A DNA stretch of 64,000 nucleotides from Natronomonas salinimetallica (lineage in GTDB: Archaea > Halobacteriota > Halobacteria > Halobacteriales > Haloarculaceae): assembly GCF_013839515.1 (NCBI RefSeq), contig NZ_JACDNQ010000007.1, forward strand, positions 1-64,000, given 5' to 3'. Positions 9,326 to 25,054 of this stretch are shown here, in pieces. Under the pieces are notes generated by a model. It saw only the letters and a program-made list of their open reading frames with translations. It did not search any database and had not been told where the DNA came from. Each line of letters begins with the position of its first letter. Within the stretch, counting starts at the first letter, position 1. The translations under genes and the position numbers were made by a program.

Positions 9326-10018
9326 ATGGACGTCGCTCTAGTATCCGTCGGTGACGAACTGCTGTCCGGCGATACGGTCAACACGAACGCCGCGTGGCTC
9401 GGCGAACGGCTCACCGAGTGTGGATCGTCGGTCGAGCGGGTGACGGTGCTCCCCGACCGCATCGCCGACATCGCCCGCGTCATAAACGAGTACGCAGCCG
9501 AGTACGACGCCGTGGTCGTGACCGGCGGCCTCGGCCCGACCCACGACGACCGGACGATGGAGGCCGTCGCCGCTGCCGTCGGACAGTCGCTCGAAACGTC
9601 CGAGGCCGCCCTCGAGTGGCTCGACGACGAGCGCGATTACGCACGGTCCGATCTCACCGCCGGGACGGCGGATCTGCCGGCCGAGGCCCGTCCGCTCAAC
9701 AACAGCGTCGGGGTCGCACCGGGATGTGTCGTCGAGAACATCTACATCCTGCCGGGCGTTCCCGAGGAGATGCAGGCGATGTTTGAATCGGTCGCATCGG
9801 AGTTCGAGGGACAGCGCCGACACGTCGAGTCGGTCACCTTGGACGAGCCCGAAAGCGCGCTGGTCGATCGGCTCCGGGAACTCGAAGCGCGGTTCGACGT
9901 CAAGGTCGGCAGCTATCCCGGCGACAACGTCCGCGTAAAAGTCGAGAGCACCGACCCGACCGCGGTCGAGGAGGCCGTCGAGTGGATCCGCGAGAACGGG
10001 ATCGAAGCGTCGACATAG
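9326..10018 (+). CDS. CinA-like molybdopterin-binding domain protein
   Basis: A 230-residue protein containing only the MoaB/MogA-type (MoCF_biosynth) fold of CinA, with GDELLSGDTVNTNAAWL near the N-terminus and VVVTGGLGPTHDDRTM near residue 60. The deamidase domain of bacterial CinA is absent. In bacteria this domain acts on nicotinamide nucleotides (ADP-ribose pyrophosphatase); here the substrate is unproven. TTTATTCG at 9297-9304 sets a leaderless start. Its last 28 bases are duplicated 51 bases downstream. Confidence 0.85.
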   Translation: MDVALVSVGDELLSGDTVNTNAAWLGERLTECGSSVERVTVLPDRIADIARVINEYAAEYDAVVVTGGLGPTHDDRTMEAVAAAVGQSLETSEAALEWLDDERDYARSDLTAGTADLPAEARPLNNSVGVAPGCVVENIYILPGVPEEMQAMFESVASEFEGQRRHVESVTLDEPESALVDRLRELEARFDVKVGSYPGDNVRVKVESTDPTAVEEAVEWIRENGIEAST

Positions 10019-10065
10019 CGCCGAGCGGGAGGATGGGTCCGCGAGAACGGGATCGAAGCGTCGAC
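9987..10065 (+). repeat. 28-base direct duplication of the cinA-like gene's 3' end
   Basis: The 28 bases at 9987-10014, coding the C-terminal residues of the CinA-like protein just before its stop, recur without mismatch at 10038-10065. The second copy is non-coding. It is one of several duplications in this window that begin at a gene's 3' end. Confidence 0.9.
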
Positions 10066-10139
10066 GCCGGCGTGTCGACGCCGGACCCGACCGTACGGAC
10101 GGTGACGCGGCAGCTACGGGACTGCGGGGCCTCGGCGGT

Positions 10140-10259
10140 CTAGCGGTACAGATACCAGAGCCAGCCGACGGTGATCGCGAGGCTGGCGAGCAACACGGCC
10201 CAGCCGGACGCGTCGACGATGAGCGGGCTGTCCTCGAACGCCTGTAGGACGGGGGTCAT
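10140..10259 (-). CDS. 39-residue single-pass membrane microprotein
   Basis: A short frame encoding M-T-P-V-L-Q-A-F-E-D, then one hydrophobic helix (WAVLLASLAITVGWLW) and a YLYR C-terminus. An AT-rich stretch upstream (GGGTATTAATTGATTCC around 10278-10294) can serve as a divergent promoter shared with the NAD-kinase-like gene. A short polar N-terminus, a single Trp-flanked helix and a positive end suggest N-out/C-in insertion. No family is recognised. It is too short for routine gene calling, so coding status is moderately certain. Confidence 0.55.
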   Translation of the reverse strand: MTPVLQAFEDSPLIVDASGWAVLLASLAITVGWLWYLYR

Positions 10260-10353
10260 ACGTCAACGTCGCCGCCCCGGGGTATTAATTGATTCCGTTC
10301 GGCGCGGGGTCCGACACCGGTCTGTTTTTCCCTCACCACCACCGACGTCGTGT

Positions 10354-11430
10354 ATGCGACGCGTTGGGCTGGTGGTGAACCCGATCGCCGGCATGGGTGG
10401 CCGGGTCGGCCTCAAGGGAACCGACAACAAAGTCGAGGAGGCCAGACACCGGGGGGCGACGCCGCGGTCGCCGGCCCGCGCCCGCGAGGCGCTCGAACAC
10501 CTGAAAAGCCAGCCGAGCGGGGTCGAGTTGTTCACGTACGGCGGCGAGATGGGCGAGCGAGAAGCCGTGGCGGCCGGGTTTTCGCCCGTTCTGGTCGGCC
10601 GCCCCGACGCCGACGCAGAGGGCACTACCTCGGCGGACACCCGCGATGCGGTCCGGCGGTTCGTCGAGGCCGATGTCGATCTCGTCCTCTTCGTCGGTGG
10701 GGACGGAACCGCAGTCGACGTCGCGGAGACGCTCGGTGCGCTCGACGACGGGACACCGATCCTCGGCGTTCCGAGCGGGGTAAAGGTGTACTCCTCGGTG
10801 TTCGCCGTCACCCCGCGGGCCGCCGGACGGATCGCGACCACCTTCGATCGGACCGAAACGCGGGAGGTCAACGACATCGACGAGGACGCCTACCGCGGCG
10901 GCGACGTGAACACCGAACTGAAGGCGCTCGCGTCGGTTCCGGTCGGCGATGAGGTCCAGTCCTCGAAGCAGATCGGCGGCGGGACCGTCGAGTCCCTCGC
11001 CGCCGCCGTCGCCGCCGAGATCGGAGCGGAGGACGCGACGTACGTCTTGGGTCCGGGCTCGACCGTCGACGCGGTCAAAACGGAACTCGGGATCGACGGC
11101 TCGCCGCTCGGCGTCGACGTCTGGCGCGACGGCGACGTGCTCGTCCGCGATGCGGGGGAGACGGAGATCCTCCGGTCGCTCGGCGAGCGAAACGTCATCG
11201 TCGTCTCGCCGATCGGTGGACAGGGATTCGTCTTCGGCCGCGGAAACGACCAGATCTCGCCGGCGGTGATCCGTCGCTCGGAAATCGAGGTCGTCGCGTC
11301 GAAACAGAAGCTCTCCGATATCGGCGTGTTACGCGTCGACACCGGCGATCCGAAGCTGGACGAGAAACTCCGTGGCTGGCAGCGAGTCCGGGTCGGGAAG
11401 TTCGAACGACAGCTACTGAAAGTCGTCTAG
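10354..11430 (+). CDS. ATP-NAD/AcoX kinase family protein
   Basis: A 358-residue member of the NAD-kinase/AcoX superfamily. It opens with VGLVVNPIAGMGGRVGLKG and carries the nucleotide-binding LFVGGDGTAVDVAE motif near residue 115. It is longer than canonical NAD kinase (about 280), resembling the AcoX branch; the NAD(P) substrate is therefore inferred. The ATG at 10354 is used in preference to longer upstream frames. The stop overlaps by 3 bases with that of the convergent glutaredoxin gene, leaving no room for a separate terminator. Confidence 0.82.
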   Translation: MRRVGLVVNPIAGMGGRVGLKGTDNKVEEARHRGATPRSPARAREALEHLKSQPSGVELFTYGGEMGEREAVAAGFSPVLVGRPDADAEGTTSADTRDAVRRFVEADVDLVLFVGGDGTAVDVAETLGALDDGTPILGVPSGVKVYSSVFAVTPRAAGRIATTFDRTETREVNDIDEDAYRGGDVNTELKALASVPVGDEVQSSKQIGGGTVESLAAAVAAEIGAEDATYVLGPGSTVDAVKTELGIDGSPLGVDVWRDGDVLVRDAGETEILRSLGERNVIVVSPIGGQGFVFGRGNDQISPAVIRRSEIEVVASKQKLSDIGVLRVDTGDPKLDEKLRGWQRVRVGKFERQLLKVV

Positions 11431-11831
11431 AAGGGCGCTTCAAGGCCGTCGTCGTCCGCGTCGGGATCGACGTCGAGATCGACGTCGACGCCGAGTTCGT
11501 CCGCCAGTTCCCCACGCTGGTGGAGTTCCTCCAGGATGTCGCTACCGCCGATGAACTCGCCGTCGACGAACGTCTGCGGGATCGTCTCCCAGCCGCTGTG
11601 TTCTTCGAGGGCGGCCCGGTAGGCGTCGAGGGCGGGCAGGACGTCCTCGGTCACGATGTCGTCGGCGTCGTGGTACCGACCGAGGATATCGAGCGCCTTC
11701 TGGGAGTAGCCACACTGCGGCATCAGCTTGTTGCCCTTCATGAAGAGGACGAGCTCGTTCCCCTCGAGGAGGCTGTCGACGCGCGTTTCTACGTCGTCGG
11801 GTGCGACGCCGCCACTGGGATCAAATGTCAT
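11427..11831 (-). CDS. monothiol glutaredoxin (Grx4/GrxD type)
   Basis: A 134-residue glutaredoxin with the monothiol-type active site MPQCGYS and the glutathione-site-like motif WETIPQTFVDGEFIGG. Monothiol glutaredoxins carry or deliver [2Fe-2S] clusters; haloarchaea use gamma-glutamylcysteine as their small thiol, which fits the presence of a GCS2-family ligase at 17693. The C-terminal tail is strongly acidic (DVDLDVDPDADDDG). The start at 11831 (MTFDPSGG) is preferred over an ATG nine codons upstream. The gene is convergent with the NAD-kinase-like gene. Confidence 0.88.
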   Translation of the reverse strand: MTFDPSGGVAPDDVETRVDSLLEGNELVLFMKGNKLMPQCGYSQKALDILGRYHDADDIVTEDVLPALDAYRAALEEHSGWETIPQTFVDGEFIGGSDILEELHQRGELADELGVDVDLDVDPDADDDGLEAPF

Positions 11832-11897
11832 ATCACCGCGTTCGGGCGCGATCGGCAAAACAGTTGTGTCGCCGGCTGATCGACCCGACGCGTGCGA

Positions 11898-12734
11898 TCA
11901 CTCGACGGTTTCGAGCGTTCCGCCCTCGCGCTCCCACTCGGTGAGGCTGCCCTCATAAAAGGCGACGTCCGGGTATCCGAGCGCCCGAAGCACCGTGTAG
12001 GTGTGGCTGATCCGGCGGGCGGTGTTACAGTAGAGCACGACGCGGGTTCCGGGGACGATGCCCCGATCGGAAAGCAACGGACGAAGCTCCGATTCGGGCC
12101 GGATCGTGCGCGCGTCGGTATCGACGAGCTCCCGCCAGTCCAGACGGACCGCCCCGGGGATGTGGCCCTCCGCGTACTCCCAGGCCTCGCGGGTATCGAC
12201 GATGACGGCGTCGGGGTCGTCGCGCGCGGCCTCGATCGTCTCGCGTTCGACGAGGGGGCCGTCAGCGCGGAACCGGGCCGGATACGTCGCGTCGTATTCC
12301 GGGTCGGTGTCGGCCTCGAAAGCGGATCCAGCGCCGCGCTCGGGCGGTTCGGTCGTCGTCGGTTCGGCGCGGTTCCAGACGGAGTAATCGCCGTCCAGAA
12401 GGTGCAGTTTCGCGGGGTCGTGGCCGTACAGCTCCGCGGTTACGAGCAACCGGGCGGCGAAGACGCCGTGGGTGTCATCGTAGGCGACGATATCGTCCTC
12501 GGGGGTGACCCCCGCCGATCCGAGCAGGTCGGCGAAGGCGTTCGCCCCCGGTAACATCCCGGCCTCGGCCGCTCCGTGTTCGTCAGCCCGGAAGCTGTCG
12601 AAGGGGACGTTGGCCGCGCCGGGGACGTGTCCGATCCCGTCGTACTCCCAGGCGTCCCGGACGTCGATAACGGCAGTCTCGGGCGATTCGAGCCGATCCG
12701 CGACCCACTCGACGTCGACGATTCGCTCGTTCAT
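11898..12734 (-). CDS. two-domain sulfurtransferase (rhodanese), atypical active-site loop
   Basis: A 278-residue tandem rhodanese, with an N-terminal inactive domain (AVIDVRDAWEYDGIGHVPGA) and a C-terminal catalytic domain (VIVDTREAWEYAEGHIPGAV). The loop after the catalytic Cys reads YCNTARRISHTY rather than the CRIGERS loop found in its divergent partner, so substrate choice may differ. Such enzymes move sulfane sulfur from thiosulfate or mercaptopyruvate to acceptors. It is divergently arranged with the second sulfurtransferase across about 280 bases. Confidence 0.87.
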   Translation of the reverse strand: MNERIVDVEWVADRLESPETAVIDVRDAWEYDGIGHVPGAANVPFDSFRADEHGAAEAGMLPGANAFADLLGSAGVTPEDDIVAYDDTHGVFAARLLVTAELYGHDPAKLHLLDGDYSVWNRAEPTTTEPPERGAGSAFEADTDPEYDATYPARFRADGPLVERETIEAARDDPDAVIVDTREAWEYAEGHIPGAVRLDWRELVDTDARTIRPESELRPLLSDRGIVPGTRVVLYCNTARRISHTYTVLRALGYPDVAFYEGSLTEWEREGGTLETVE

Positions 12735-13014: not shown

Positions 13015-13881
13015 ATGAGCGATTCCGATTACGCGAACGACGTGTTGGTATCGGCCGATTGGGTCGAAGACAACCTCGAAGCGTTCGAAGACGACGATCC
13101 GGCGCATCGGCTCGTCGAGGTCGACGTCGACACCGAGGCCTACGACGAGTCCCACGCGCCGGGGGCTATCGGCTTCAACTGGGAGGAGGACCTCCAAGAC
13201 CAGACGACCCGCGACATCCTCGACAAGGCGGACTTCGAGGCCCTCCTGGGCGAGCACGGTATCACCGAGGACTCGACGGTCGTGCTGTACGGCGACAACG
13301 CGAACTGGTTCGCCGCCTACACGTACTGGCAGTTCAAATACTACGGCCACGACGACGTGAAGCTGCTCGACGGTGGCCGCGAGTACTGGCTCGACAACGA
13401 CTATCCGACGACCGAGGACGTCCCCACCTTCTCCGCGGTCGAGTACGAGGCCTCGGGTCCCCGCGAATCGATCCGAGCCTACCGCGAGGACGTCGAGAAC
13501 GCGATCGATAGCGGCCTCCCGCTGGTCGACGTCCGATCGCCCGAGGAGTTCAGCGGCAAGGTGCTCGCCCCGCCGGGGCTCAACGAGACGGCCCAGCGCG
13601 GCGGCCACATCCCCGGCGCACAGAACATCTCGTGGGCGGCCGTGACGGGCGACGACGGGACGTTCAAGGACGCGGACGAACTCGAAGAGCTCTACGCCGA
13701 CCGCGGTATCGACGGCGAGAGTACGACCGTCGCGTACTGCCGGATCGGCGAGCGCTCCTCGGTAGCGTGGTTCGCGCTCCACGAACTGCTCGGCTACGAG
13801 GATACGGTCAACTACGATGGCTCCTGGACGGAGTGGGGTAATTTGGTCGGTGCGCCGATAGAGACAGGCGAGGCCGAGTGA
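13015..13881 (+). CDS. sulfurtransferase (tandem rhodanese, TssA-like)
   Basis: A 288-residue two-domain rhodanese with a canonical active-site loop, YCRIGERSSVAW, in the C-terminal domain near residue 242 and the entry motif LVDVRSPEEFSGK near residue 169. It transfers sulfur from thiosulfate to thiophilic acceptors. The last residues, ETGEAE and the stop, are encoded by the first copy of a 62-base tandem repeat, so the natural C-terminus may have been rewritten. Its divergent neighbour is a second sulfurtransferase with a different loop. Confidence 0.92.
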   Translation: MSDSDYANDVLVSADWVEDNLEAFEDDDPAHRLVEVDVDTEAYDESHAPGAIGFNWEEDLQDQTTRDILDKADFEALLGEHGITEDSTVVLYGDNANWFAAYTYWQFKYYGHDDVKLLDGGREYWLDNDYPTTEDVPTFSAVEYEASGPRESIRAYREDVENAIDSGLPLVDVRSPEEFSGKVLAPPGLNETAQRGGHIPGAQNISWAAVTGDDGTFKDADELEELYADRGIDGESTTVAYCRIGERSSVAWFALHELLGYEDTVNYDGSWTEWGNLVGAPIETGEAE

Positions 13882-14078
13882 GCGAGGCCTCGAGAGACCG
13901 AACGGGGAGTATTGCGACCCGTGAGACAGGCGAGGCCGAGTGAGCGAGGCCTCGAGAGACCGAACGGGGAGTATTGCGACCCGTGAGACAGGCGAGGCCG
14001 AGTGAGCGAGGCCTCGAGAGACCGAACGGGGAGTATTGCGACCCGTGAGACAGGCGAGGCCGAGTGAGCGAGGCCTCG
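13861..14078 (+). repeat. 62-base tandem repeat, 3.5 copies, starting inside a gene's last codons
   Basis: Units start at 13861, 13923, 13985 and 14047; the last is cut after 32 bases. Three complete units are identical by eye. Each holds an inverted repeat (CGAGGCC, 10-base loop, GGCCTCG). The first unit supplies the ETGEAE-stop end of the sulfurtransferase, and the last runs to within 50 bases of the ferritin-like gene. The hairpins could act as stacked transcription terminators. Confidence 0.95.
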
Positions 14079-14123: not shown

Positions 14124-14750
14124 ATGAATTCAGACGAGTTCACCGATACCGTCCGCACCGAGAACGAGACCGCCCTCTCGCGGCTTGGGTCCTCGAAGTC
14201 ACTGTACGCCGAAACCGGCGGCGAGATGACCCCCGACGACGTACTCACCGCCGCCGCCACGGCGGAGCACCACGCCGCCGAGACCTACGCGGCGTGGGCC
14301 GACGCCGAGGACGGGGACGTCGCCGACGCGTTCGCGGCGACCGAACGCGAGGAGCGATCCCACTACGCGACGGTCGCCGGCGAGCTAGACGATCACGAGC
14401 CGGGAACGGTCCCCGCGATCCAGGCGTACCTCCGGGGGCTGGAGGGGACGGCGGCCCGTCTCGGCGGGTTCGTCGGCCGGACGATCGCCGCGGAGAAATC
14501 GAAGACCCAGATCACGGGCTTTTTCGTTGGCGACGCGGATCCCCAGACCGCGAGGCTGTTCCGCGAAATGGGTGCGGACCTCGACGCGCAGATGGAGCGG
14601 GCCGAGGCGCTGCTCGCGGCCGAGTGCGGCGACGACGAGGAGCGGTGGGAGACGGCCCTGGAGGCGGCACACGGCGCGATCGAGGCGGCCTACGAGGCGT
14701 ACACCGAGTCGCTCGAATCGATGGGCGTCAACCCCAAGCCGGTCTGTTGA
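14124..14750 (+). CDS. ferritin-like (rubrerythrin-type) protein
   Basis: A 208-residue all-helical protein resembling the haloarchaeal rubrerythrin-like family, with AEHHAAETYAAW near residue 49 and AATEREERSHYATV near residue 72 as candidate diiron ligand helices. No rubredoxin Cys pairs are present; the only cysteines are one in ECGD and the C-terminal residue. Family members handle peroxide or store iron, though some lack metal. The ATG at 14124 avoids the repeat-derived GTG at 14064. Its TGA stop forms the edge of a 110-base dispersed element. Confidence 0.7.
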   Translation: MNSDEFTDTVRTENETALSRLGSSKSLYAETGGEMTPDDVLTAAATAEHHAAETYAAWADAEDGDVADAFAATEREERSHYATVAGELDDHEPGTVPAIQAYLRGLEGTAARLGGFVGRTIAAEKSKTQITGFFVGDADPQTARLFREMGADLDAQMERAEALLAAECGDDEERWETALEAAHGAIEAAYEAYTESLESMGVNPKPVC

Positions 14751-14859
14751 TACTGGTGGACGAAATCAAATGAAACCGACTCACGAGTGATCCGCCGTTC
14801 GCTCCGTCGAACGGTGTGATCCTCGTGCGTCGTGTGTACATTCTTTTGTCCGTCAGTAT
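14750..14859 (+). repeat. 110-base dispersed element, copy 1 (ATACTG...CAGTAT ends, hairpin core)
   Basis: Begins on the final A of the ferritin-like gene's TGA stop and ends in CAGTAT. The copy at 47291-47400 differs at two of 110 positions. The ends are imperfect inverted repeats (12 of 15 match). The core at 14782-14827 folds into a near-perfect hairpin (CACGAG...GATC...GCCGTTCG / CGAACGGT...GATC...CTCGTG), followed by a T-rich ATTCTTTTGT. A small MITE, a 3' UTR structure or a terminator are all possible readings. Confidence 0.88.
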
Positions 14860-14903
14860 GAGCGGGGGCTCCGATTCGGCCCGCAGGGAGGTGGAACCAC
14901 GCG

Positions 14904-15020
14904 GCGCATCCACGTTCCCGCCCCGCACGGCGTATCCACGTTCCCGCCCCGCACGGCACATCCACGTTCCCGCCCCGCACGGCGCATCCACGTTCCCGCC
15001 CCGCACGGCACATCCACGTT
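14904..15020 (+). repeat. 26-base tandem repeat, 4.5 copies, upstream of the quinone reductase
   Basis: Units begin at 14904, 14930, 14956, 14982 and 15008 (GCRYATCCACGTTCCCGCCC...). Substitutions are confined to the second to fourth bases (GCGC, GCGT, GCAC). The final unit runs into CACGTTTATGTCC, so the array ends at the probable promoter of the quinone reductase gene. Confidence 0.93.
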
Positions 15021-18781: not shown

Positions 18782-19387
18782 TCACTCGGCGAAGAGCCCG
18801 TCCGCGAGCGACGCGACCAGCGCTTCGTGGGCGTCGTCGAGGCCCTCCTGGCCGACGTCCTCGAAGGTGTCCTTCGCGACGACGGTAAACGCGAGCAGCC
18901 GGAAGAGTCCGACGAGCTCCGCGGGATCGTCGATTCGGAAGGCGTCGGCGTCCGTCCACCGCTCGGCATGCGGTTTAAACATCCGGAGCTGTTCGTCGTA
19001 GTGCGCCTCGAGGCCTGCCTCGCTCGCTTCGAGGTGCAGCGGCCTGATGTCGTCTTCGACGATGAGCCGGTAGTACAGCGGGTTCGTCTCCAGCTCCTCG
19101 AAGAAATAATCGAAGGCCGCCAACACTTCCGCGTGCAGGTCCGGTGCGTCCTCCAGGATCCCCTCGAGTTCGTCGGCCATCCGGCTCTGCTCGTGGTTGA
19201 GGATCTCCAGATACAGCGACTCCTTCGAATCGAAGAACTGGTAGAACGTGCTCGTTGCGATACCGACCTCGTCGGTCAAGTCACTGATCCGAGTCCGGTC
19301 GTGGCCGAACGCGGAGAACTGCTCGCGGCCGGCCTCGATCAGCCCCTCGCGGATCCGGTCGCGTTCGCGGTCGCTAAACCCTTTCAT
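18782..19387 (-). CDS. TetR/AcrR family transcriptional regulator
   Basis: A 201-residue repressor-type regulator. An N-terminal HTH (RISDLTDEVGIATSTFYQFF, residues about 25-60) is followed by a helical ligand-binding domain. It is divergent from the secreted-protein/RND transporter pair. A perfect 11-base inverted repeat starts at its own start codon. This arrangement is classical for a TetR repressor controlling itself and an efflux operon. The ligand cannot be inferred. Confidence 0.9.
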   Translation of the reverse strand: MKGFSDRERDRIREGLIEAGREQFSAFGHDRTRISDLTDEVGIATSTFYQFFDSKESLYLEILNHEQSRMADELEGILEDAPDLHAEVLAAFDYFFEELETNPLYYRLIVEDDIRPLHLEASEAGLEAHYDEQLRMFKPHAERWTDADAFRIDDPAELVGLFRLLAFTVVAKDTFEDVGQEGLDDAHEALVASLADGLFAE

Positions 19388-19429
19388 TCATCCGGTTTAC
19401 GCCCGGTTTGACGGCGACAACCGGATGAA
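19387..19429. promoter_or_regulatory. candidate TetR operator, 11-base inverted repeat
   Basis: TTCATCCGGTT (19387-19397) and its exact complement AACCGGATGAA (19419-19429) flank 21 bases, with the left arm touching the tetR start codon. This is the most likely binding site of the regulator; the right side leads to the RND operon promoter around 19497 (TTTATC, about 30 bases before the ATG at 19529). Confidence 0.65.
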
Positions 19430-19528
19430 ATACTGGGCGTGCGGTCGCGACGTGATCGTCGCCTCTGGTGCATGTGTAAAAACGCAGGAACAGAAAGTTT
19501 ATCAATTTTTGCTTTTATAGTGTAGACA

Positions 19529-21226
19529 ATGGAAAACACCCCCACGGAGTCCCGAGAACGCACGACGTCGGATACGGCTATCAAACGGCGCCTGGGAGGT
19601 GGTGGGGGACCCAGACCGTTCGGTGTCGTAATCCTGGCGTTGCTTTTGATCACGTCGACGGGGGTGGGTGCCGTCGCCTTCGGTTCGGGGACGGCGAGCG
19701 CACAGACCGGGTTCTCTTCGGGCGACGTCGAGTTGGACGTGTTCGTCCCCGACAACACGTTCACCCCCGGCCGGACGGCCGAGATGAACCTACAGGTCGC
19801 CAACGACGGCGAGGTCAACGACGGCAGTTCGCCGGATACGACGGACCTGACGACCACGGCGCGAAACGTCCGCGTCGAGGTCGACGAACAGCGCGCGCCG
19901 ATCTCGGTCGAGACGGGCGAAAAATCGATCGGCAGCGTCGGCACCGAGACGCCGAGGGAGGTCCCGATCGAGATCGACGTCCCCGAGGATGCCGAGGAGG
20001 GCGAATACGAGATCGAGGTCGAACTCGAGTACCGACACACCTCCCGTGTCTTCGATAGGGCCGGCACCCAGGGCGACCGCACACACACTGTCACCCGTGA
20101 TATCGACATCGAGATCGACGATGCGCCCCGCTTCGATCTCACCGAACTCGAAACGACCGCTCAGGTAGACGACTCGGGGCCGACGACGGCCGAGATCGAG
20201 AACGTCGGCGGCGAACCCGCCGAAGACCTGACCGTCGAGCTCACCTCGACGAGCCAACGGGTCAGTTTCGGCGATAGCCCGAGTGAGACCGCCAGCGTCT
20301 CGTCGCTCGCCCCCGGCGAGACCGCCACGATCAGGTACGATGTCCGGTTCGGTCCGCGCGCGAGCGAACGGGCGTACCCGTTCGATGCGACGGTCACCTA
20401 CGAGGATCTGGACGGCATCCCCGGTACGGACAGCCAGCCGACGCTGGACGTCACGCCGATGGCCGAACAGACCTTCGAGATCACGGACACCGAGTCGACG
20501 CTGCGGGTCGGCGAGGAAGGCGACCTTATGGGTACAGTGACCAACACCGGCCCCGTCGCGGTCGACAGCGTTTCGGTCCAGTACAGCGACGAGTACCCGA
20601 ACATCGTCCCGATCGAGCGTGACGTCGCCGTCGGTACGCTCGATCCCGGCGAGTCCGCGGCGTTTCGCTTGCCGCTCGAGGTGACCCGCGAGGCCGATCC
20701 CGTCGCCAAGTCGGTCGCGATGTCGGTCTCCTACCGGAGCGACGAGAACGAACTCAACCGGTACGAGGACGTCAACGCCTTCGCCGAGGTCGCCGAACGT
20801 CGCGATCAGTTCCTCATCGACGTCGAGGAGAACGAGATCCCGGCCGGCTCAGAGCGGCTCATCAACGTGACCGTGACGAACAACCTCGACGAACCCGTCA
20901 GCGACGTCGAAGCCAAACTGTTCACCGACAGTCCGATCGGGGCGGGCGATGACGACGAGGCGTACGCCGAGTCCCTCGAGCCGGGCGAATCGACGACGAC
21001 GTCCTTCCGGATCAGCGCCGACAGCGGCGCGGCACCCCGAACGTACTCGGTCGAGATGGACTTCCGGTACGACGACGAGGACGGCACGAGCAAGGTCTCG
21101 GAGACGTACCGGGCTGCCATCGACGTCACCGAATCCGAGGACGGCGGCCCGTCGTGGCTGCTCATTGGCGGCCTCCTCGTCGTCGTCGCGCTCGGAGCAG
21201 GTGCCCTCTGGCGGCGGCGAGGATAA
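19529..21226 (+). CDS. secreted multi-domain CARDB/COG1361-like protein with C-terminal membrane anchor
   Basis: A 565-residue surface protein. The signal anchor around residues 32-50 (GVVILALLLITSTGVGAVAF) ends in TASAQTG, followed by several Ig-like/CARDB domains (repeated LDPGESAAFRLPLEV and LEPGESTTTSFRISA segments). A C-terminal helix (SWLLIGGLLVVVALGAGALW) then ends in RRRG. Such proteins (COG1361) commonly accompany RND transporters in archaea and may act as the external adaptor. Its stop is 6 bases before the transporter start; operon regulated by the divergent TetR. Confidence 0.82.
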   Translation: MENTPTESRERTTSDTAIKRRLGGGGGPRPFGVVILALLLITSTGVGAVAFGSGTASAQTGFSSGDVELDVFVPDNTFTPGRTAEMNLQVANDGEVNDGSSPDTTDLTTTARNVRVEVDEQRAPISVETGEKSIGSVGTETPREVPIEIDVPEDAEEGEYEIEVELEYRHTSRVFDRAGTQGDRTHTVTRDIDIEIDDAPRFDLTELETTAQVDDSGPTTAEIENVGGEPAEDLTVELTSTSQRVSFGDSPSETASVSSLAPGETATIRYDVRFGPRASERAYPFDATVTYEDLDGIPGTDSQPTLDVTPMAEQTFEITDTESTLRVGEEGDLMGTVTNTGPVAVDSVSVQYSDEYPNIVPIERDVAVGTLDPGESAAFRLPLEVTREADPVAKSVAMSVSYRSDENELNRYEDVNAFAEVAERRDQFLIDVEENEIPAGSERLINVTVTNNLDEPVSDVEAKLFTDSPIGAGDDDEAYAESLEPGESTTTSFRISADSGAAPRTYSVEMDFRYDDEDGTSKVSETYRAAIDVTESEDGGPSWLLIGGLLVVVALGAGALWRRRG

Positions 21227-21232
21227 CGGCTG

Positions 21233-23695
21233 ATGGGGTTCGGACAATCGTTCGAGACGGCCGTCGAGCGGATAAACGAGACCATCCTCGACCGGCCGCT
21301 CGCGGTTATCGCCGTGTTCGCGCTCGTGACCGCACTTCTCGCCGGCGGGATGCCGCTCATCACGACCGAATCGGAGGCGACGGACGCGTTCACGGAGGGG
21401 CTCCCGGAACAGGAGGCCCTGGACGCGGTCAACGACGAGTTCGGTGACCGCTTCGAGGACGACCGGGCGACGACACAGCTAATTCACGTCGGCGACAACG
21501 TCCTCTCGAAGACGGAGCTGCGTCGGAGCCTCACGGCCCTCGACCGGACCGACCAACGCGCCGCACTCAGATACGAGGGGGCGGCCGGTCCGGCGGTCCT
21601 CGTCGCGGGCGAGATCGATCCGACCGCGAACACGCCCGAGCAGCGACTGCGGACCATAGAGCGGGCCTCCGAACGCGAAATTCGGGCGGCGGTCCGCGAG
21701 CTGGCGGACGCTCCGCAGTTCCGAGCGCTTCTCTCCGACGATTTCAACGCCGCGTCGGCCTCGGCTTCGGCCTCGATCACCGTCGTCACACACGACGTAC
21801 CGAGCAGCAGCGGCGGGGGCCCGGACGAGGGCGGCGGACAGATAGAGGAGATCCAGACGTCGATGCGACCCGTCATCGAGGACACCGGCGGCGATATCCG
21901 CGTGTTCGGCTCGGGCATCATAAGCGCCGAAAACGCGAACGTCATCGGCGATTCGTTGACGATCGTCATGCCGCTCGTGCTCGTGTTGATCCTGGGCTTT
22001 CTCGTGGTCGCCTACCGCGACCCGATCGACCTCGTGTTGGGGCTGATCGCGCTCATCACGACGCTCGTGTGGACGTTCGGAACCGTCGGCTACGCCGAAA
22101 TCCCGTTCGACCAGAACATGATCGCCGTTCCGGTGTTGTTGTTGGCCGTCGGGATCGACTTCGGCATCCACATCATCAACCGGTACCGCGAGGAGCGCGT
22201 ACAGGGTATCGGTCCCCGGGAGGCCATGAAGACGGCGAACCGGCAGCTCATCGTCGCGTTCTTCATCGTTACGGTCACCACGGTCTTCGGGTTCGGCGCG
22301 AACGTGATCAGCGATCTGGGACCGATAAGCAACTTCGGGCTGGTCGCGGCCATCGGGATCACCTACACCTTCTTCATCTTCGGTATCTTCCTGCCGGCGC
22401 TGAAGATAACGGCCGACCGACTGCGGAACGAACTCTCGCTCCCGGCGTTCGGATCGAGTCCGATCTCCTCGGAGGACTCATCGTTCGGCCGACTGCTGTC
22501 GGTCGGCGCGACGGTTTCGCGTATCGCCCCGGCCGCGTTCGTCGTCCTCACGCTCGTGATCGGCGGCGGCGCAGCGGCCTACGGTCAGGACGTCGATCGG
22601 TCCTTCGACACCGACGACTTCCTGCCGCCCGAGGAGATCCCGGTGTATATTGATATCCTCCCCGAACCGCTCGCGCCGAGTGAGTACACCGCAACGGGGA
22701 ACCTCAATCTGATCGAGGACCGCTTCGAGGCGAGCCAGGAGGACCAAGCGACCGTATACCTCGTGGGCCCCTTCGAGGACAACAGCGCCCTGGAGTCGAT
22801 CCATCGGACGAACCGGGATCCGCCGGACTCCTTCATCGAGGAGGACCGTCGGGCCGAATCCACGAGCATACTCACGGTCATCGACTCGCGCGCCGAGCGC
22901 GACCCGGAGTTCGCCGCCCTCGTCGAGCGCAACGACCGGAACGACAACGGCGTCCCCGACCGGAATCTCGATCGGATCTACGACGAACTCGAGGCCGACA
23001 GCGCCGGCCGTGCCAACGAGTTCCTCACCTCGGATCATCGGGCCGCGAAGATCGAGTACGACGTCGAAGCCGACGCCAGCCAGGCCGAAGTCTCGGCCGA
23101 CGCACGGACGTTCGCCGAGGAGTTCCGCTACACCGCGACGGCGACCGGCGGCGTAGTCGTCTTCAATGCGGTCTCTGATCGGATCTTCTCCTCGGCGACC
23201 GACAGCCTCATGGCCGCGATCGCGCTCACGAGCATCTTCCTCGTCATCGTCTACGGTGCCCTGGAGCGTCGGCCGCTGCTCGGACTCGTCAACCTCTTTC
23301 CGATCCTCGTGACGATCGCGTTGTTGTTGGCGACGATGCGAGCGATCGGGCTCCCGCTCAACGCGCTGACGGCGACGTTGCTCTCGATTACGGTCGGGGT
23401 CGGGGTGGCGTACTCCGTCCACATCACCCACCGGTTCGTCGACGAGTACAACGAGAGCGGCGATACCTTCGGGTCACTCGTGACGACGCTCAGCGGGACC
23501 GGCGGGGCGCTGACCGGAAGCATGCTCACGACCTCGATCGGAACCGGCGCGCTCGCGTTGGCGATCACGCCCATCCTCGGGAACTTCGGGCTGTTGATGG
23601 CCGTGAGCGTGTTCTTCTCGTATCTCACCTCGATCCTGGTGTTGCCGCCGACGCTTTTGCTCTGGGGCCGACGCGCACCGGATCTGTCCGGGTGA
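21233..23695 (+). CDS. RND superfamily transporter (MMPL/HAE3 type)
   Basis: An 820-residue polytopic protein built as two homologous halves. Each half has one helix, a large outer loop, then five helices. The helix-4 motifs are LLLAVGIDFGIHIINRYREE in the first half and VGVGVAYSVHITHRFVDEYN in the second. RND family members use proton (or sodium) gradients to move lipids or drugs. With the CARDB-type partner and TetR control it looks like an inducible exporter of an envelope lipid or xenobiotic; the cargo is unknown. Confidence 0.9.
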   Translation: MGFGQSFETAVERINETILDRPLAVIAVFALVTALLAGGMPLITTESEATDAFTEGLPEQEALDAVNDEFGDRFEDDRATTQLIHVGDNVLSKTELRRSLTALDRTDQRAALRYEGAAGPAVLVAGEIDPTANTPEQRLRTIERASEREIRAAVRELADAPQFRALLSDDFNAASASASASITVVTHDVPSSSGGGPDEGGGQIEEIQTSMRPVIEDTGGDIRVFGSGIISAENANVIGDSLTIVMPLVLVLILGFLVVAYRDPIDLVLGLIALITTLVWTFGTVGYAEIPFDQNMIAVPVLLLAVGIDFGIHIINRYREERVQGIGPREAMKTANRQLIVAFFIVTVTTVFGFGANVISDLGPISNFGLVAAIGITYTFFIFGIFLPALKITADRLRNELSLPAFGSSPISSEDSSFGRLLSVGATVSRIAPAAFVVLTLVIGGGAAAYGQDVDRSFDTDDFLPPEEIPVYIDILPEPLAPSEYTATGNLNLIEDRFEASQEDQATVYLVGPFEDNSALESIHRTNRDPPDSFIEEDRRAESTSILTVIDSRAERDPEFAALVERNDRNDNGVPDRNLDRIYDELEADSAGRANEFLTSDHRAAKIEYDVEADASQAEVSADARTFAEEFRYTATATGGVVVFNAVSDRIFSSATDSLMAAIALTSIFLVIVYGALERRPLLGLVNLFPILVTIALLLATMRAIGLPLNALTATLLSITVGVGVAYSVHITHRFVDEYNESGDTFGSLVTTLSGTGGALTGSMLTTSIGTGALALAITPILGNFGLLMAVSVFFSYLTSILVLPPTLLLWGRRAPDLSG

Positions 23696-23797
23696 GCGCC
23701 GTCCCCCGTTCCGATAGCGCCCGCGACCGACGGGGTTCCCCGGTGCCGCCGCAGAATTTATGTACAGCAGTACCTTGTGTCCGATCGAACACGACAC

Positions 23798-24316
23798 ATG
23801 TCCACGGATGATTCCCCCGAGGAGGTCGACGGAGAACACGAGGGCGTACGCGAGCGCCTAGAACAGGAAGCCGAACGGGCGGCGGAGGGATTCGACGAGG
23901 GAATCGTGGATCTGCTCTCGTGGGTGCTCGATACGGAGACCAGAGCCCGGATCTACGTCTACCTCCGGGAGAACCCCGCCAGTACGAGCGAGGAGGTCGC
24001 AAGCGGAACCGGGCTGTATCCGAGTACCGTTCGGGAGGCGCTCGCGGAACTGAACGAGGAGCACAAAGTCGAGCGGCGCAAGCGGGAGTCCGACGGGGCG
24101 GGCAACAATCCATACGAGTATACGGCGATGGCGCCGAGCGAACTCGTCGGGAACGTCGTCGGAGACGTCCAGGACGAACTGAACACCGTATTCAACCTCG
24201 ATTGTCACCTCGGTGTCGGGAGCGAGGAGCGTTCCGAGCCGGTCACGATAACCGTCGAAGACGGCGAAAGCGACGTGGACGGCGACGCCGACGGCGGATC
24301 CGAGGACACGCCGTAG
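23798..24316 (+). CDS. winged-helix transcriptional regulator
   Basis: A 172-residue protein with a winged-helix DNA-binding domain at about 40-115 (TRARIYVYLRENPASTSEEVA, then the recognition helix STVREALAELNEEHKVERR). The C-terminal tail is very acidic (DVDGDADGGSEDTP). The ATG at 23798 is preferred to the GTG at 23777. The charged N-terminal region EEVDGEHEGVRERLEQEA suggests a helix or coiled coil for dimerisation. It lies downstream of the RND gene but has its own AT-rich upstream region. Confidence 0.75.
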   Translation: MSTDDSPEEVDGEHEGVRERLEQEAERAAEGFDEGIVDLLSWVLDTETRARIYVYLRENPASTSEEVASGTGLYPSTVREALAELNEEHKVERRKRESDGAGNNPYEYTAMAPSELVGNVVGDVQDELNTVFNLDCHLGVGSEERSEPVTITVEDGESDVDGDADGGSEDTP

Positions 24317-24918: not shown

Positions 24919-24933
24919 CGTCCGGTGGGTATC

Positions 24934-24997
24934 GCCGGCAGTGTGGAATCCGCCGGCAGTATGGAAGCCACCGCCGGCAGTATGGAAGCCACCGCCG
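24934..24997 (+). repeat. short tandem repeat (GCCGGCAGT..., 18-21 base units)
   Basis: GCCGGCAGTGTGG at 24934 and GCCGGCAGTATGG at 24952 and 24973 form an imperfect array just downstream of coaD. The GCCGGCAGTAT core equals the inner end of the dispersed ATACTG elements, so the array may derive from one. Confidence 0.6.
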
Positions 24998-25054
24998 GGT
25001 CCTCCTCGCGTTCTCCGCAAGCTAATTGAGCCAGCGCCGCCACCCGGACACGTA

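Follow-up and report, generated by a model that had tools for sequence, protein, structure and literature searches.

A divergent TetR/CARDB/MMPL module of haloarchaea with a candidate operator over the CARDB promoter and a mini-ORF ahead of CARDB

Gene content and conservation of the module

The window (the whole 64,000-nt stretch of DNA analysed here) encodes three genes at this locus, with coordinates that we checked and identities supported by Pfam and NCBIfam matches. The TetR-family regulator (201 aa; 18782..19387, minus strand) contains a TetR_N helix-turn-helix above the curated Pfam cut-off (40.3 bits vs 24), and its structural model (10 helices, pLDDT 89.5) has the TetR fold with a helical ligand domain, matching at Z 14.6-16.7 among the 50 structural matches listed. 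On the plus strand are a CARDB/NEW3 (COG1361-like) protein (565 aa; 19529..21226; NPCBM_assoc 54 bits, CARDB 47 bits) and an MMPL/HAE3-type RND transporter (820 aa; 21233..23695). The first-pass annotation had a TetR gene diverging from this pair, and all three genes are indeed real and positioned as it described.

It had also suggested a search for conserved gene order in haloarchaea, which showed TetR/CARDB/MMPL to be a conserved divergent module. We searched 146 genomes for the TetR, and 40 had a match; the window's own genome and 38 others were examined at one place each (G040 was left out), and the module was present in 10 of these 38 others. The 56 divergent TetR/CARDB spacers were reduced to 51 by removing near-duplicates; because 30 of the 51 loci are from Halorubrum, counts over these loci are not independent. 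The TetRs of loci L041-L043 are close to the window TetR (53-56%), and their CARDB and MMPL branch apart in trees whose root is unsure; cassette replacement was considered for these loci. No clean profile-score threshold separates module TetRs from others, as the scores overlap (L046/L107 at 198 without CARDB, L115 at 195 with CARDB).

The two plus-strand genes are tightly linked: in 49 of 50 modules they are separated by 0-9 nt, taking the start nearest the preceding stop (a count that has no control). Scoring adjacency as same strand with a gap <3500, CARDB and MMPL are adjacent in 18/18 genomes of the order that have both genes, among the matches listed. Across other archaeal orders, adjacency occurs in at least 24 of 42 genomes with both genes, mostly with CARDB first, and was not seen in 18 of the 42 among the matches listed; these genome counts are lower bounds because some weak matches were left out. 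The tally comprises at least 70 row pairs, in which fragments of one gene count separately. Our literature search returned no match for COG1361 with RND, nor for "MMPL family" with haloarchaea.

The MMPL transporter

The MMPL domain of the transporter lies in two stretches and is well above the Pfam cut-off (142.4 bits vs 20.5). Its best NCBIfam match is TIGR00921 (HAE3), below the curated cut-off (229.2 bits vs 351.9). The codon for Asp309 (22157..22159, plus strand) is part of a conserved GIDFGIH motif, and this residue is Asp in 50/50 module MMPLs. Ala726 (codon 23408..23410, plus strand), in GVAYSVH, is Ala in 46/50 and Asp in 4/50. By analogy with other RND proteins, we take Asp309 to lie in TM4 and Ala726 in TM10. 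MmpL3 has an acidic residue at both of these relay positions, and other RND members differ; the window MMPL has Asp at the first and Ala at the second, so it lacks the two-acid relay. Solo MMPL paralogues on contigs C4 and C1 have Asp at the Ala726 position. The module MMPLs thus resemble archaeal HAE3/MMPL RND transporters (TIGR00921, PF03176) in the two-stretch domain and the conserved Asp309, and differ from them in falling below the TIGR00921 cut-off and in the replacement of the second relay Asp by Ala in 46/50.

The CARDB protein as a possible transport partner

In the CARDB model (pLDDT 83, but low for residues 1-59), an N-terminal signal segment is followed by four Ig-like sandwiches (residues 62-534) and a C-terminal membrane-like helix (543-564). 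The protein had been described as secreted; given the terminal helix in the model, it is probably membrane-anchored instead. Pfam searches detected no HlyD/MFP family at E <= 0.1 and identified NPCBM_assoc and CARDB instead, and there was no adaptor-like PDB match among the matches listed. In this the module differs from MFP tripartite RND export, where the partner protein has a HlyD/MFP adaptor domain. Judging from the gene pairing, it is plausible that CARDB would serve as an adaptor in MMPL export.

Alternatively, CARDB could be a surface or S-layer protein that is co-expressed with MMPL and has no part in transport. Its domains match generic Ig-like folds among the matches listed, and the stretches examined for two close MMPL paralogues of this genome contain no CARDB match, both of which fit that reading. 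We consider it the less likely one, though a serious competitor, given the adjacency across orders, the preferred order and short gap described above, and the fact that even a divergent MMPL on the genome's own contig C6 (24% identity) is paired with a CARDB. The same gene pair, annotated as COG1361 S-layer and MMPL, is found on Halobacterium, Haloferax, and Haloarcula plasmids; in two cases (L151, L152) the gene diverging from the pair encodes a different, distantly related TetR, and in the third (L150) the stretch lists no TetR.

An inverted repeat specific to the window

A perfect 11-bp inverted repeat (19387..19429) sits on the TetR start, as first reported, with arms TTCATCCGGTT (19387-19397) and AACCGGATGAA (19419-19429) separated by 21 nt; the TetR start codon begins at base 19387. 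The first-pass annotation called it a clear operator and named its absence from relatives with the same gene set as evidence that would count against this. The repeat is missing from 50/50 other TetR/CARDB spacers, and we therefore rejected it as a conserved operator. Of the 51 non-duplicate spacers, only the window's own has it within 75 nt of the TetR start, and two arm copies within 2 mismatches were found in none of the 50 others. Even the L039 spacer lacks it, though the flanking proteins are 82-89% identical (TetR 82%). The perfect 11-bp repeat at L045 is another sequence, the TATA-flanking palindrome described below.

The repeat could still be a genuine, species-specific site for TetR autoregulation, in which case the conserved palindrome would be a second site or not the TetR's at all. 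Consistent with this, the arms are perfect, and there is additional, partial symmetry over the TetR start (17-nt arms, 88%). Exact matches to the arm number 7 in 2.78 Mb, including the two at this locus, and allowing one mismatch gives 61 matches vs 17 for the reversed control. We regard this as improbable: the repeat is absent even from the relative with an 82% identical TetR, the arm is unlike the conserved half-site, and chance repeats are common. Perfect arms of at least 11 bases with a gap of at most 25 occur at 5 separate places in the window, and a binned counter gave 6 in the real window vs 2.27 (SD 1.67) in 40 Markov-1 simulated windows. Such a repeat is expected somewhere in 64 kb; by simple arithmetic, the chance within the 141-nt spacer is ~0.005.

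A conserved palindrome over the CARDB-MMPL promoter

The spacer contains another symmetric element, an imperfect palindrome (19480..19516; half-sites at about 19484-19490 and 19506-19512) over the BRE/TATA of the CARDB-MMPL operon, which we propose as the TetR operator. By sequence, the TATA-like box is TTTATC (19498..19503, plus strand), ~30 nt before the start codon. A 46-nt motif (window 19472-19517) including this ~35-bp palindrome was present in 51/51 spacers and was found at the same place in 51/51 leave-one-out runs, with scores of at least 22.0 vs a null maximum of -1.9. The TATA-centred axis was the most symmetric of 44 axes. The window's copy ranks low (43rd of 51, score 41.2), and 7 of its 10 arm positions pair (4-9 across loci).

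Association with the regulator extends beyond the module. Among 38 related TetRs outside it (profile scores 90 to <192), a motif scoring >5 lies within 250 nt of 12, vs 0.8% of 1546 control windows, and no motif was found within 250 nt of the other 26. This set is mixed. Four members come from actinobacteria; L071, which has the highest score, itself diverges from an MMPL gene (31% identity); and the stretches of L051 and L056 include a CARDB-like gene. The set leaves out L046/L107 and L048, where the motif lies ~100 nt before the TetR (scores 24.9 and 29.6); including them gives 14/40. Where this TetR is absent, four CARDB or MMPL promoters scored -11.2 to -20.9, and three plasmid promoters, two beside a different, distant TetR, scored -8.3, -20.3, and -12.4 on the better strand, so the palindrome motif was not found at the plasmid pairs L150, L151, and L152. 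A degenerate form of the motif gave one match per genome in 6/6 genomes, which were chosen for strong sites.

Since the motif is partly core promoter, it might be a strong BRE/TATA with incidental symmetry, the TetR acting elsewhere or not being a regulator. The most conserved columns do include BRE/TATA-like bases, and we rejected clear compensatory change in the arms, as complementarity within sequences was hardly higher than between sequences (0.625 vs 0.608, SD 0.014); outer arm positions are paired in only 33-51% of loci. This explanation nonetheless seems improbable to us, because arm columns outside BRE/TATA are also conserved, scores are negative at all seven CARDB or MMPL promoters that lack this TetR, and the element is also present next to some related TetRs whose neighbours differ. 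Most likely, the ~35-bp palindrome is a TetR site at which the regulator would block TBP/TFB until ligand release. Such an arrangement would parallel the QacR/MtrR/AcrR-type efflux repressors, which share the TetR_N domain, the TetR fold, divergence from a transporter gene, and a palindrome over the target promoter, here a candidate one. QacR and MtrR are among the structural matches listed for the window TetR, and a pair of QacR dimers binds a long palindrome. The window TetR differs in being archaeal and would act on a TBP/TFB promoter.

A mini-ORF ahead of CARDB

A separate mini-ORF, 17-52 codons long, is present in 42/51 loci and begins 28-33 nt downstream of the TATA box. An A/GTG is found 28-30 nt from TATA in 44/51 loci vs 0-5/51 in 22 control blocks; five of the 51 have none at 27-33 nt. 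The mini-ORF stops at the CARDB start (-11 to +6) in 38/42 cases, 20 by NTGA overlap, compared to 16/84 for the other two frames, with the CARDB start nearest the preceding stop taken for all frames alike. A Shine-Dalgarno match of at least 5 nt is found at 27/38 coupled starts vs 13% in shuffles. Three others terminate 43-52 nt before CARDB, and at L055 there is no CARDB start that could be used. The mini-ORF is fused to CARDB in the window and in L039, L040, and L082; in the window it corresponds to an N-terminal extension of ~29 aa before the signal segment (19529..19615, plus strand), at the site of the relatives' separate mini-ORF. The overlapping or closely spaced stops and starts typical of termination-reinitiation are thus found in relatives, whereas the window frames are fused. 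Two annotated CARDB starts look too far downstream.

Conservation of the encoded peptide was rejected. In 13 related pairs, substitution by codon position is flat in the mini-ORF (0.18/0.13/0.17) vs 0.06/0.02/0.36 in CARDB, and GC by codon position (0.66/0.66/0.64) shows no GC3 rise. As the codons appear free of protein constraint, the mini-ORF probably serves ribosome delivery only. If the peptide itself were functional, or were a stalling leader that acts as an attenuator, this would explain why start and frame are kept in 42/51 loci, and many of the peptides look Arg-rich by eye. Such a role is doubtful in view of the flat substitution and GC profiles, the variable length, and the lack, by eye, of any peptide sequence common across genera.

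Short ORFs are reported in 16/97 long 5'-UTRs of Haloferax volcanii (PMC4983044), and the haloarchaeal overlapping pairs tested are reported to depend strictly on upstream translation (PMC6728339). The present case differs in that the mini-ORF stays at one position in several genera as its peptide drifts, and in that most of its stop codons either overlap the main start or lie shortly before it.

Proposed mechanism and implications

We propose, with a probability of about 0.62, that the module provides an envelope transporter with a local switch under ligand control, built from the TetR palindrome, the mini-ORF or its fusion, and the CARDB-MMPL pair. The TetR would bind the ~35-bp palindrome and keep TBP/TFB off the BRE/TATA of the CARDB-MMPL promoter, and would be released on sensing a small hydrophobic or amphiphilic molecule. 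Transcription would start ~28-30 nt downstream of TATA, which in most relatives would place the transcript 5' end at the mini-ORF start codon. Ribosomes would enter at that codon and then reinitiate at the start of CARDB, a route for which only start, open frame, and stop would need conserving; in the window lineage, fusion would make CARDB itself leaderless. With their genes 0-9 nt apart, CARDB and MMPL would be made together. MMPL would probably be driven by ions and export a lipid-like compound; the pairing of the genes suggests the membrane-anchored four-Ig CARDB as its extracellular partner.

A more specific version, which we offer tentatively and at somewhat under even odds, is that the leaderless mini-ORF would be a peptide-independent landing pad for ribosomes. 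It would form a double lock, TetR over TATA plus mini-ORF translation, that fusion has dissolved in the window lineage, and the pump would work without the second relay Asp, together with an anchored Ig-chain partner.

To our knowledge, few archaeal TetR-type operators have been mapped. The motif provides a candidate consensus operator for an archaeal TetR subfamily, testable in culturable Natronomonas, Halorubrum, and Natrialba. The mini-ORF suggests where CARDB genes begin, and it would be comparative evidence that selection can act on leaderless translation and reinitiation irrespective of the peptide.

Gene content and transporter of the module

The module of this haloarchaeon consists of a minus-strand TetR gene (18782-19387) and, diverging from it, a tandem pair of genes: 19529-21226 encodes a CARDB/NEW3 protein and 21233-23695 an MMPL transporter. 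It has the layout that the first-pass annotation described, a TetR facing a CARDB protein and an RND (MMPL) transporter. As a gene set it is unremarkable, and public records already carry annotations of its parts. The structure model and structural matches give the TetR an ordinary TetR fold. In the model of the CARDB protein, an N-terminal signal segment is followed by four Ig-like sandwiches spanning residues 62-534 and by a helix at the C terminus (543-564); because of this architecture, the protein is more likely to be anchored than, as had been proposed, secreted. Just 3' of the MMPL gene, at 23777-24316, lies a winged-helix regulator with weak matches to the Sta1, Lrs14, and TrmB models, none of them reaching the cut-off.

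A search for conserved gene order, suggested earlier, was made with CARDB and MMPL profiles across a 148-genome sample of the phylum, with CARDB matches in 109 genomes and MMPL matches in 120. Among the matches listed, the two are adjacent in at least 18 genomes of the window's order (18/18 with both) and in at least 24 of the 42 genomes with both from other orders, and in 64 of the 70 row pairs CARDB is the leading gene. In the module itself, a gap of 0-9 nt separates CARDB from MMPL in 49/50 cases, taking the nearest start. This adjacency and tight spacing support the prediction that CARDB-MMPL is a functional unit. Contig C6 of the same genome carries another CARDB-MMPL pair, one without this TetR.

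The relay positions of the window MMPL, labeled TM4 and TM10 by analogy, are Asp309 and Ala726 (codons 22157-22159 and 23408-23410). Module MMPLs retain Asp at the first position (50/50) and have mostly lost it at the second (Ala in 46/50, Asp in 4/50), in contrast to two close paralogues in the same genome, which keep the second Asp and have no CARDB match within the stretches read.

A Pfam domain search found no adaptor domain in CARDB, and its Ig-domain chains resemble many unrelated structures in a structure search. A lipid-like cargo is our guess, based on HpnN, MmpL, and NPC1 relatives and on the TetR's similarity to FasR and FadR models, where scores fall far below the cut-offs. In Haloferax alexandrinus, one COG1361 protein is reported to increase under silver (PMC10694973). 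At two comparison loci (L151 4962-5226 and L152 4010-4274), the COG1361 gene is annotated as starting 225 and 273 nt into the stretch of homology, and signal-peptide-like starts are present upstream.

A candidate operator over the BRE/TATA

The first-pass annotation saw a clear operator in a perfect 11-bp inverted repeat at the TetR start (19387-19429). The repeat is present, as one of five such places in the window; a binned repeat counter gave 6 for the window vs 2.27 (SD 1.67) for simulated windows. Among 51 non-duplicate TetR/CARDB spacers, only the window has a perfect 11-base repeat near the TetR start (≤75 nt away; 10 bases in L124, 8 in L041), and two copies of the arm at ≤2 mismatches occur in none of the other spacers. 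It is missing even from L039, whose TetR, CARDB, and MMPL are 82%, 84%, and 89% identical to the window's, and absence from a relative with the same gene set had been named beforehand as counting against it. We therefore reject this repeat as a conserved operator.

Other repeats in the window include a perfect 62-bp tandem repeat (13861-14078, 3.5 copies) beside an ORF at 14064, a 26-bp tandem repeat (14902-15020, 4.6 copies), and a ~21-bp tandem repeat (24933-24998, 3.3 copies). By eye, ORF translations around 14690-14900 resemble those near 1430-2000 of locus L038, so an interspersed repeat is possible there.

What all 51 spacers share is a 46-nt motif with core consensus TAnGAAtcCAagAACaAAAngtTTATTgATTCGTGnatt, which in the window forms an imperfect palindrome over the BRE/TATA of the CARDB-MMPL promoter (19480-19516). 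Leave-one-out runs placed it identically in 51/51, with scores of at least 22.0 vs a simulated-spacer maximum of -1.9. The motif is roughly palindromic around the TATA box: positions 17-35 are complementary in 100% of loci, 18-34 in 98%, 14-38 in 88%, and 13-39 in 76%, and outer positions in just 33-51%. In one copy (L045), perfect 11-bp inverted arms flank a 9-nt gap. The arms show no clear covariation across the 51 spacers, the symmetry sitting in the column consensus. The window copy scores 41.2 (rank 43/51), with 7/10 arm pairs (range 4-9). A degenerate pattern (≤3 mismatches) matched once per genome in all six genomes scanned, which were picked for strong sites; the regulator therefore looks local. 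Altogether, we re-map the operator to this palindrome as a candidate site with good comparative support.

The motif also occurs within 250 nt of related TetRs outside the module (12/38, vs 0.8% of 1546 control windows), some of which (L058, L072, L076) adjoin genes that, by eye, start like ABC ATPases. Four CARDB or MMPL promoters without this TetR score -11.2 to -20.9. In plasmid-borne pairs of Haloferax and Haloarcula, the divergent position is taken by a different, distant TetR, and the motif scores at best -20.3 and -12.4; the pair on a Halobacterium plasmid, where no TetR is listed, reaches -8.3. These scores, and the motif beside some related TetRs, suggest that the candidate site goes with the TetR and not with the pump, although 26/38 related TetRs lack it within 250 nt. 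Given that the candidate site lies over the BRE/TATA, the TetR would repress by keeping TBP/TFB off.

In L044, the CARDB-MMPL pair is followed in tandem by another (9520-12000), whose upstream region is without the motif. In a metagenome bin (L055 6418-6959; L126 is the same), the TetR is broken into two frames, one covering residues 1-88 and the other 114-199, through decay or sequencing error.

A mini-ORF ahead of CARDB

A frame of 17-52 codons begins at an A/GTG lying 28-33 nt from the TATA box in 42/51 loci; in four more (the window, L039, L040, and L082) the frame runs into CARDB, and five have no such start. An A/GTG at 28-30 nt occurs in 44/51 loci vs 0-5/51 in 22 control blocks. Of the 42 mini-ORFs, 38 stop close to a CARDB start, between -11 and +6 from it (20 NTGA overlaps, 14 at +6, four at -8 or -10); for the other two frames, tested likewise, the figure was 16/84. 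Three of the uncoupled mini-ORFs end 43-52 nt short of CARDB, and L055 has no usable CARDB start. Coupled starts yield signal-peptide-like N-termini (e.g., MRTRPLSVVLVSVLLLTSG), and a Shine-Dalgarno match of ≥5 nt precedes 27/38 of them vs 13% in shuffles; it precedes 0/4 fused starts.

The mini-ORF is flat by codon position in both GC (0.66, 0.66, 0.64) and substitutions (0.18, 0.13, 0.17, in 13 partly overlapping related pairs), vs 0.06, 0.02, and 0.36 for CARDB substitutions in the same pairs. The start and stop are conserved, whereas the peptide is not. By record title, Halorubrum contributes 30/51 loci counted, but NTGA overlaps are also found in Natronomonas (L047), another genus of the family (L044), Halobellus (L103), and at least five genera of Natrialba kin (L085, L086, L091, L092, L095, L131).

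In Haloferax volcanii, according to excerpts of the published work, 72% of protein-coding transcripts are leaderless and 16/97 long 5'-UTRs contain short ORFs (PMC4983044), and the overlapping gene pairs tested there strictly require that the first gene be translated (PMC6728339). The module thus exemplifies, in conserved form, a kind of arrangement that has already been proposed, and it introduces no new principle. The putatively leaderless mini-ORF of the relatives, fused to CARDB in the window, is its most interesting new feature.
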